Positions 1 to 34,273 of a DNA stretch of 34,296 nucleotides are shown piece by piece. Source of the stretch: Candidatus Nomurabacteria bacterium (lineage in GTDB: Bacteria > Patescibacteriota > Saccharimonadia > Saccharimonadales > Saccharimonadaceae); assembly GCA_031255735.1 (NCBI GenBank), contig JAIRRY010000001.1:1-34296 (forward strand), given 5' to 3'. Each line of letters opens with the position of its first letter. Within the stretch, counting starts at the first letter, position 1. A model generated the notes under the pieces. The model saw only the letters and a program-made list of their open reading frames with translations, did no database searches and was not told the origin of the DNA. Both the position numbers and the translations under genes were made by a program.

Positions 1-236
1 TTGGTTCTGTTCACTTCCAGAAATCTGTTCGCTTCCAGAATTCTATTCACTTCCATAAATAGCTAACCGTGATTAAGTTCCGGTTGCTTCTAGAAGTAGG
101 TTACTCACCATGACTCGAATCTAGTTACTTCCAAAAGAAGTCAACCCTAACTCAAACCTAGTTGTTTCCAAAAGAAGTCAACCCTAACTCAAACCTGGTT
201 ACTTTTGTAAGTAGGTTGCCCACCCTAATTCATAAT
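1..236. repeat. Degenerate tandem repeat array, probably non-coding
   Basis: Seven related units run off the left edge. Three are 18 nt (6-23, 24-41, 42-59), each a variant of TCTGTTCACTTCCAGAAA. Four are longer: 80-120 (41 nt), 121-157 and 158-194 (37 nt, 35 of 37 identical) and 195-236 (42 nt). The shared core on minus is about TTCTGGAAGTRAMYAG. Within the longer units the core pairs with a following copy (GTTACTTC..GAAGTcAAC), so each can form a hairpin. Unit lengths of 37 and 41 are not multiples of three, so the array as a whole is not coding. No spacers separate the units, so it is not a CRISPR array. The minus strand at 56-1 could encode MEVNRILEANRFLEVNRT running off the window, but there is no ribosome binding site. 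Confidence 0.75.
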
Positions 237-288
237 CTTTTTTTTTAATAGACGTATTAAGTATGTTTACTGAGTTTTTTGTGAAAAC

Positions 289-422
289 AAAAAACTCCAT
301 CTAGATGGAGCAAACAATTTACACTGTTCACGCCCACCGTGATTTATTACTTATTACTTATTTATTAAACTTAATCGTCTAATATTTGTACGAATCGTTA
401 CTAATTACTTAGCTTTGATTCT
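289..422 (-). ncRNA. Candidate small structured RNA or attenuated leader, copy 1
   Basis: A consensus promoter (429-457) predicts a start near 422. The RNA opens with a hairpin GAATC..GATTC enclosing CTAA-GTAA-TTAG with a GNRA loop. An unstructured A/U stretch with TAATAAG repeats follows, then the hairpin TCACG-GTGGG-CGTGA (328-342). The last element is an intrinsic terminator: palindrome CTCCATCTAGATGGAG (295-310) followed by U6 near 289. Beyond the terminator, the U-tract is exactly complementary to the next bases, giving hairpin GAGTTTTTTGT-(4)-ACAAAAAACTC (272-297), which shares CTC/GAG with the terminator stem. TAGACGATTAAG (381-370) can also pair with CTTAATACGTCTA (261-249) in read-through RNA, with one bulge. 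I recognise no known RNA family. Confidence 0.5.
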
Positions 423-33546: not shown

Positions 33547-33963
33547 TTAATTATTATTAATCTCGTTCAGGATCATACTAACCGTCTCTCCGTCACCACC
33601 GTTGAGCATGGCGACATATGTCACCAGCACTCCAACGGTGCGAATAAAGGCCATCATACTGGAGGAATCATATTGATCACCTCTAGACGATAGCCTCATT
33701 ACATCAGCAAACAATTCTCGATGATGCTCGAGAATTGCCGTTCTAATACCCCCCTCTTGATAATAAAAGAGGGATGATTGCCTACACCTTGATGTACCGC
33801 TGCACCGGGTGTATTCACTGGGTTGAGGATCCCAGACTATAAAGGATGCCTTATCCTTTTCTCTCAACTCAGCCAACTCTAGTTTCTCTAGCGTCTCTTT
33901 GATCGTTAGAAAAACCTCCTGAGTTATTAAAGTATTTGGACCAATACCAATGCAACCTTCCAT
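33547..33963 (-). CDS. Orphan protein of unknown function
   Basis: Not recognised. 138 aa starting MEGCIGIGPN, with an acidic helical segment (FLTIKETLEKLELAELREKD), a Cys pair (RCSGTSRC), SLFYYQEGGIRTAILEHHRELFADVMRL and a hydrophobic stretch (FIRTVGVLVTYVAML) near the C-terminus, ending NEINNN. No signal peptide is seen. The start at 33963 is chosen because GGAGGTG lies 7 nt upstream, the best SD in the window; an ATG at 34026 lacks one. Its neighbours are AT-rich non-coding DNA, an inverted repeat and RNA copy 2, so it may be a recent arrival or a regulated accessory gene. Confidence 0.7.
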   Translation of the reverse strand: MEGCIGIGPNTLITQEVFLTIKETLEKLELAELREKDKASFIVWDPQPSEYTRCSGTSRCRQSSLFYYQEGGIRTAILEHHRELFADVMRLSSRGDQYDSSSMMAFIRTVGVLVTYVAMLNGGDGETVSMILNEINNN

Positions 33964-34081: not shown

Positions 34082-34159
34082 GATTATTTAATAAGAAAGT
34101 TTGTTTTTAGAGTAGGTTATTAAAGTACAAGACAATTAAGGAGATGTGAGTTTTTCTTT

Positions 34160-34239
34160 AAAAAGAAAAACTCTGTGTACACAGAGTTTAAAGATTTCCG
34201 TGAACACCTTGTCACTTATGTAATTGATTTCTCAATTAC
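34160..34239 (-). ncRNA. Candidate structured RNA or attenuated leader, copy 2
   Basis: On minus from the predicted +1 (about 34239): hairpin GTAATTGA-GAAA-TCAATTAC (34220-34239), hairpin GTGA-(8)-TCAC (34200-34215), then terminator palindrome CTCTGTGTACACAGAG (34171-34186, extended by AAA/TTT) and U5CU5. As in copy 1 the U-tract is followed by its complement: GAGTTTTTCTTT (34148-34159) pairs with AAAGAAAAACTC (34162-34173). The stems differ in sequence from copy 1 but keep the layout. The orphan ORF begins about 200 nt downstream on the same strand. Confidence 0.45.
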
Positions 34240-34245
34240 ACTATC

Positions 34246-34273
34246 ACTCTATCACAAAAATGATGGAAATCAA
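34246..34273 (-). promoter_or_regulatory. Probable promoter of RNA copy 2
   Basis: TTGATT (34268-34273), 16-nt spacer, TAGAGT (34246-34251) with a TGA extension on minus. Weaker than the copy 1 promoter. Confidence 0.4.

Follow-up and report, generated by a model that had tools for sequence, protein, structure and literature searches.

The window analysed here is an entire contig (C4, 34,296 nt) of Candidatus Nomurabacteria bacterium, whose 652-kb genome is assembled in 29 contigs. At its low end, on the minus strand, a promoter and a leader of about 130 nt span positions 272–457, with a palindromic terminator at the end of the leader; we refer to this as copy 1. The sigma70-type promoter (429–457, TTGACA-17-TACAAT) has TG ahead of its −10 element and 11 of 12 consensus matches, and a transcript start near position 422 is plausible from the sequence. 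Genes for tRNA-Leu and tRNA-Cys adjoin the leader at 570–747. Because they have a terminator-like hairpin of their own before the copy 1 promoter (about 529–560, recognized by eye), the leader would be a separate short transcript. It is predicted to begin with a 5′-terminal hairpin, P1 (392–422, minus strand; GAATC..CTAA-GTAA-TTAG..GATTC), which is found in the predicted fold of every copy in this genome and is retained with altered bases in copies C17a, C6, C17b and C12a.

The terminator (T; 289–310, minus strand) consists of the palindrome CTCCATCTAGATGGAG at 310–295 followed by U6 at 294–289, and is supported by the sequence itself, a terminator scan and covariation. The first-pass annotation had called it a textbook terminator. 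The palindrome and U-tract are indeed there, but the description is generous for a weak stem of 6 bp, with −5.6 kcal/mol for the 16-mer. Read 5′ to 3′ on the minus strand, CTCCATCTAGATGGAG is followed by T6, GTTTTC and then ACAAAAAACTC at 282–272, so the complement of the U-tract is present as claimed but starts six bases beyond it, not immediately next. GAGTTTTTTGT (297–287) and ACAAAAAACTC form a perfect 11-bp stem with the loop TTTC. We call the corresponding RNA structure, GAG-U6-GU/AC-A6-CUC with the loop UUUC, the U-tract hairpin (AU; 272–297, minus strand); it rests on sequence, covariation and folding. It has GAG (297–295) and the entire U-tract in common with the terminator, which upholds the claim that the two hairpins are mutually exclusive.

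Three further elements of copy 1, all on the minus strand, were derived from predicted pairing. An upstream strand, AUCACGGUGGGCGUGAACAGU (323–343), which the first-pass annotation had not noticed, is predicted to act as the 5′ strand of an antiterminator (AT) by pairing with 318–299, a stretch covering the palindrome's 5′ arm, its loop and part of its 3′ arm; energy and shuffle tests support this. A candidate anti-antiterminator hairpin (TCACG-gtggg-CGTGA, 328–342) overlaps the AT 5′ strand and appears in folds where the terminator state is forced; its conservation in other species is not clear. Finally, a long-range helix had been proposed as a second switch, with TAGACGATTAAG (370–381) as its 5′ strand and CTTAATACGTCTA (249–261) as its 3′ strand. 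This pairing exists, with one bulged base, but its support is no better than weak to moderate: P was about 0.02–0.03 against shuffles in copy 1 and its twin, with lower support elsewhere.

No ORF follows leader 1 within the window. Between the leader and the contig start lie 37-nt and 18-nt direct repeats (1–217, no strand assigned), a tract that runs on, with orphan ORFs after it, in contigs C26, C15 and C1. Contigs C15 and C1 carry a similar hairpin and ORF, linked by the repeats to leader 1 and its 94% twin; a join of C4 to C15 is inferred. Tandem repeats of 37 and 18 nt are also seen in L021 (227–492), and both tracts belong to the long leader that follows copy 1 and its twin. An open frame common to the repeat tracts (window 1–217; L021 227–492) was not found.

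The first-pass annotation had also reported that the design recurs with different bases at 34148–34186, and we confirmed this as copy 2, again on the minus strand. Its layout (34186–34148) is that of copy 1 in other bases: CTCTGTGTACACAGAG-T5, then GAGTTTTTCTTT/AAAGAAAAACTC. The promoter-like site, TTGATT-16-TAGAGT (34246–34273), is weak and was identified by eye, without a score. Folding gave P1 with a GAAA loop (34218–34241), and folding together with a swap test gave the AT 5′ strand, GUGU-u-CACGGA (34197–34207). The terminator (34166–34186) comprises CTCTGTGTACACAGAG at 34186–34171 and U5 at 34170–34166, and the U-tract hairpin, GAGUUUUUCUUU/AAAGAAAAACUC, occupies 34148–34173 by sequence and fold. 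Downstream lie a conserved segment, CCTTAATTGTCTTGTACTTTAA (34114–34141; family motif CTTGnACCTTAA), and a 138-aa ORF (33547–33963) whose control by copy 2 is inferred. That ORF matched no Pfam, NCBIfam, PHROG or PADLOC family, and convincing relatives were not found among 151 genomes of the family.

Related Leaders Elsewhere in the Genome

A DNA search of the same genome with positions 249–422 as the query led to about a dozen other places, and their genomic context was read as stretches around the matches. At least 11 distinct loci of the device were recognized, nearly all upstream of unrelated orphan ORFs, and the promoter of copy 1 recurs at 11 leaders. The order of parts is promoter, 5′ hairpin, palindrome, T-tract, complement and the segment CTTAATTGTCTTGnACTTTAA; after that, most loci have another long hairpin, a ribosome-binding site and an ORF. 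Not all parts are visible in each, as some loci end at contig ends. Several matches lie there because the assembly broke in repeats, with contig-end overlaps of 119 bp and 114 bp. One palindrome is common to most of these loci.

The ORFs that follow the leaders are about 120–306 aa long. Searches against Pfam, NCBIfam, PHROGs and PADLOC returned just weak zinc-ribbon hints, and the idea that the ORFs form one family found no support in these family searches. Viral contigs and phage records yielded no match to the leader or the ORFs. In a same-genus genome (G001; EF-Tu 98% identical), the region upstream of tuf contained no cassette, so the cassette at that place is accessory.

A chance origin of the layout is excluded. 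The exact arrangement GAGT6-N4-10-A6CTC-N10-GAG occurred just 7 times in 257 Gb of other species' genomes, scattered and without the remainder of the leader, against at least 11 device copies in this one genome.

Several other features were noted at these and similar loci. Four orphan ORFs (L077 on the minus strand, L078, L024 and L026) have a long, covarying-looking hairpin (GTTCGTnGTG..CACnACGAAC..GACGTCC..GACGGGC) directly ahead of the ribosome-binding site, and a different hairpin, CCGCCATAG..CTATGGCG, takes the corresponding position at copy 2 of the window and at L023, L028 and L033. Tandem duplication of the palindrome/T-tract/A-tract unit, apparently independent in several genomes, is seen at L028 (2016–2088), L030/L032, L083, L111, L112, L141 and L154. 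The loop of the U-tract hairpin at L024 (2119–2140) is the reverse complement of that in sister copies (GTGAAAC vs GTTTCAC), as if the spacer had been inverted. Other genera contain relatives of a 170-aa zinc-ribbon ORF (L033 3061–3573) that measure about 130 aa and come without the leader (L053, L054, L055); their C-terminal motif resembles PAVPxxNDxFWxYTxVPxxGxxWWxxLP. The notion that ORF relatives keep the leader was rejected, since relatives of this ORF in genomes G024, G073 and G078 lack it.

Competing RNA Folds

We folded the leaders, cut at the U-tract, with RNAfold, which models equilibrium folding and not folding during transcription. All 11 leaders of this genome were predicted to have two near-equal states at that point, about 0–4 kcal/mol apart, one with the terminator intact and one with it broken by an AT in which the upstream strand pairs with the palindrome's 5′ arm, loop and part of its 3′ arm. 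The AT of copy 1 pairs AUCacGGUGGGcGUGAACAGU with AUUGUUUGCUCCAUCuaGAU; that of copies C5 and C25 is AUC-a-AGAUGG...CCAUCU-a-GAU, and that of copy 2 is GUGU-u-CACGGA...UCUGUG-u-ACAC. When the complement was added, AT and AU together were better than a forced terminator by 7.2–11.5 kcal/mol in all nine complete copies, and the terminator was absent from the minimum-energy folds of 26 loci, save one truncated before the complement.

When upstream strands were swapped, that of copy 2 gained 7.1 kcal/mol with its own palindrome vs 1.1 with the other, and that of copy 1 gained 8.4 vs 4.1 kcal/mol. At 25 loci in other genomes, the energy gained by the AT exceeded that of dinucleotide shuffles of the upstream sequence, with a combined P of about 2e-12; this value counts related loci as independent, and tandem duplication inflates a few entries (at least one). 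The AT was individually unremarkable at 6 of the 25 loci (P 0.29–0.70), and support was weak when the upstream strand was tested simply for duplex formation with the terminator arm.

A constitutive terminator or processing signal might produce a short, stable leader RNA without any regulated switching, in which case AU would restructure only rare read-through and might serve as a ribonuclease III site or a 5′ protecting structure. The predicted short RNA (about 75–140 nt) has the 5′ hairpin and the 3′ terminator hairpin with U5–6 that this would need, no ligand pocket is visible, and the placement of AU near the terminator resembles lambda int retroregulation. Such a signal would have no need for AT strands that fit each palindrome, however, and an ORF with a ribosome site comes after almost every leader whose downstream region is readable. 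We consider this explanation unlikely.

The terminator loop was self-complementary in 26 of 26 loci (CTAG, GTAC, ATAT, AATT, TATA, AGCT or CATG). These loci were delimited by eye, and selection bias in the count is possible. An RNA hairpin does not need a self-complementary loop; this feature is not explained by an attenuator model.

Conservation Within the Family

The first-pass annotation had suggested a selected RNA device, with structural homologues and covariation in relatives as the preset test, and both were found. Whole-leader DNA BLAST against 60 relatives gave no convincing match, and it was covariance models that did succeed. A model of AT and AU built from this genome's own copies (R1) recovered this layout, made up of other bases, in further genera of the family. 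The relatives' palindromes include CTCTGTATATACAGAG, CTCTGTAATTACAGAG, AGCTGTATGTACATACAGCT, GGTATGCAGCTGCATACC and GCCTACATATGTAGGC, each with U5–6 next and then the complement of its own 3′ arm. A second model (R2), which adds the downstream motif, matched 20 of 394 genomes of the family, in 12 of 61 genera, with a few of these doubtful; 15 genomes were left under stricter criteria (perfect palindrome, perfect complement and promoter-like site). Every match in an order-level sample fell within this family.

Most of the relatives' matches that were read show a promoter-like site and a 5′ hairpin, followed downstream by an ORF that has a ribosome site. Promoter, leader, terminator and ORF stand in the same order as in this genome. 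Among the ORFs of the relatives are an HD-domain hydrolase and what may be a SprT-like protein. The motif CTTGnACCTTAA, located 15–30 nt beyond the U-tract hairpin (alignment A5, last third), is conserved across genera, and the ACCTT within it looks like an anti-Shine-Dalgarno sequence.

Some candidates did not belong to this group. Matches in other families of the phylum (L129–L133) were weak and lacked a leader, and two tRNA-terminator matches (L086, L090) were rejected because the leader was absent. As a separate observation, L042, L046, L086 and L090 are single post-tRNA terminators of other bacteria with the U-tract complement next, lacking leader or ORF context.

Unguided RNAalifold on a 17-sequence alignment recovered the terminator, with double-sided changes in 6 of 6 pairs. 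For the terminator core and AU together, 8 pairs gave 24 cells with double-sided changes; none of 500 shuffles reached 24 cells, and slid-structure controls gave 1–8. One of the 3′-arm pairs of AU (helix 2) had double-sided changes, a low count that is partly due to misalignment of some rows there; the matching arms are directly visible in individual loci. In single-palindrome copies, the 2–4 bases of the 3′ arm, GAG, AGG, GAGC, TACC and GGAG, are matched downstream by CTC, CCT, GCTC, GGTA and CTCC. This conservation of both predicted folds, which are mutually exclusive, is the strongest argument for a switch.

The same downstream matches bear on the proposal that the terminators are convergent (bidirectional), with AAAAAACTC a remnant of a second terminator on the opposite strand. 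In the tandem duplicates C26b, G031, G301, G488, G826 and G015, a T-tract and an A-tract do separate two facing palindromes. Most copies have a single palindrome, yet they keep the 3′-arm complement downstream, which is the very condition that would refute the proposal, and generic terminators would not be expected to keep to a single family and to this promoter. We find this proposal very hard to sustain.

Distribution and orientation bear on another possibility, that the palindromes act at the DNA level in mobile promoter-gene cassettes of a REP/BIME-like or attC-like kind, as their cruciform or recombination sites, and that RNA pairing is incidental. Many features are of the kind expected for such elements: copies are dispersed, with common segments that reach upstream of the promoters; contigs break at them and their distribution is patchy; one same-genus locus has no cassette; the palindrome-T-A unit is tandemly duplicated in several genomes; copy C6 has an inverted AU loop; and the palindromes stay perfect across the loop. 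Against this, the unit keeps a constant orientation with the promoter and lies upstream of an ORF wherever the context is readable, on the transcribed strand the T-tract comes after the palindrome, and viral contigs gave no match. Covariation links the AT with the palindrome, and DNA cruciforms would have no need of that. A purely DNA-level role is improbable in our judgment.

Discussion

A conserved family of attenuators is, in our view, real, and its mechanism is well supported by comparative sequence analysis, without experiment. Specifically, each copy probably serves as a bistable attenuator, acting in cis on transcription of the accessory orphan gene whose 5′ leader contains it, and AU would lock its read-through form. 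Termination at T in vivo, antitermination by AT and locking of the read-through RNA by AU are all inferred. The weakness of the terminators in this genome's copies (−5.6 kcal/mol) counts against this reading.

RNA polymerase would start at the strong promoter and the 5′ hairpin would then be made. In the OFF state, the palindrome would fold as the terminator and transcription would stop after U5–6, about 75–140 nt from the start. In the ON state, the upstream strand would take the palindrome's 5′ arm and loop, blocking the terminator so that polymerase goes on. Once the complement is present in the read-through RNA, AU would capture the terminator's freed 3′ arm and U-tract. AT and AU are predicted to be compatible and jointly to exclude the terminator, which would leave the ON fold strongly favoured and effectively irreversible. 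In this scheme AU would be a lock, not a sensor. The complement of the U-tract is made only after polymerase has passed the terminator, so AU cannot stop termination there; as it forms after the termination decision, its benefit must be indirect. It may keep polymerase from backtracking into the terminator, rid the mRNA of a structure that resembles a terminator or is prone to nuclease attack, or give the mRNA protection.

What would set the switch is less clear. No conserved aptamer pocket was found in the leaders. A ribosome on a short leader ORF could choose between T and AT, and in two loci of genome G022 an ATG and a Shine-Dalgarno-like sequence do sit right at the AT 5′ strand. Of the 22 loci examined, though, the majority, including all eight of this genome, lack a Shine-Dalgarno-like start whose frame crosses the terminator, and the loop lengths vary out of frame. 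The defining feature of a leader-peptide attenuator, a conserved short ORF across it, is thus missing, and we give this version almost no credence. With neither an aptamer pocket nor a leader peptide, the signal of the attenuator is less likely to be a metabolite than a protein, elongation kinetics or physical conditions.

Rho-independent transcription attenuators with a mutually exclusive antiterminator are an established class (reviewed in PMC2965389; defined in PMC3369936). The leaders described here show the two of its features that sequence analysis can address: on one strand, an intrinsic terminator separates the promoter from the ORF, and a conserved alternative fold excludes it, on the evidence of folding and covariation and not biochemistry. 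They share with that class the promoter, the leader, the terminator before the ORF and an upstream strand competing for the 5′ arm. They differ in adding a hairpin that captures the U-tract after read-through, in a terminator that is a perfect palindrome through the loop, and in being common to many unrelated orphan genes. In the retroregulation of lambda int by sib, RNase III cuts an extended version of the terminator's own stem, and it does so downstream of the gene. There, too, sequence past the terminator pairs only in read-through RNA and alters its fate, whereas in the present leaders the new hairpin replaces the terminator and lies upstream of the gene.

BIME/REP palindromic repeats can also serve as attenuators (PMC2965389), and like the present copies they are dispersed palindromic repeats ahead of several genes. 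Unlike them, the present copies hold a promoter, 5′ hairpin, AT and U-tract in a single orientation, and their leaders keep pairing across species while the bases differ. Palindromes independent of promoter and orientation, which would characterize REP/BIME, are not what we see: T and AU always come after a promoter-like leader, in one orientation, where this is readable.

Riboswitches, T-boxes and ANTAR antiterminators resemble these leaders in having a T/AT expression platform, but no conserved aptamer, specifier or T-box sequence, or paired hexaloop hairpins were seen. An Rfam search of the leaders at gathering and E-value thresholds gave no match. The leaders do not qualify as metabolite riboswitches, as the stretch between P1 and AT varies in length and sequence among this genome's own copies where an aptamer should be conserved; nor do they qualify as T-boxes, for want of a T-box sequence, specifier stem or Rfam match.

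The attenuator family is apparently undescribed, as far as a limited literature search and the lack of an Rfam match can tell. The Patescibacteria papers that we found mention riboswitches only as engineering tools (PMC11665869). A survey of RNA candidates from the human microbiome (PMC8040213) does not name the group in its main text, and an unnamed candidate in its supplement is not excluded.

A more far-reaching idea is that dozens of unrelated orphan genes across the family are joined in one system by the self-locking attenuator. Since every terminator is self-complementary through its loop, trans pairing is possible, and terminated leaders may pair with nascent leaders of the same sequence, so that leaders sense their own abundance or each other. 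We offer this only as speculation with a small chance of being right.

If the attenuator reading is correct, these leaders would be a conserved family of RNA switches in a group without regulatory RNA of this kind in the literature searched. They would also reveal a use for the sequence just past a terminator, as a hairpin that removes the U-tract and makes read-through irreversible. The at least 11 copies in this genome are natural replicates and its relatives supply compensatory mutations, which makes the terminator/antiterminator model directly testable. For the organism and its family, the leaders would group orphan genes of unknown function into candidate regulons and give a handle on their roles.
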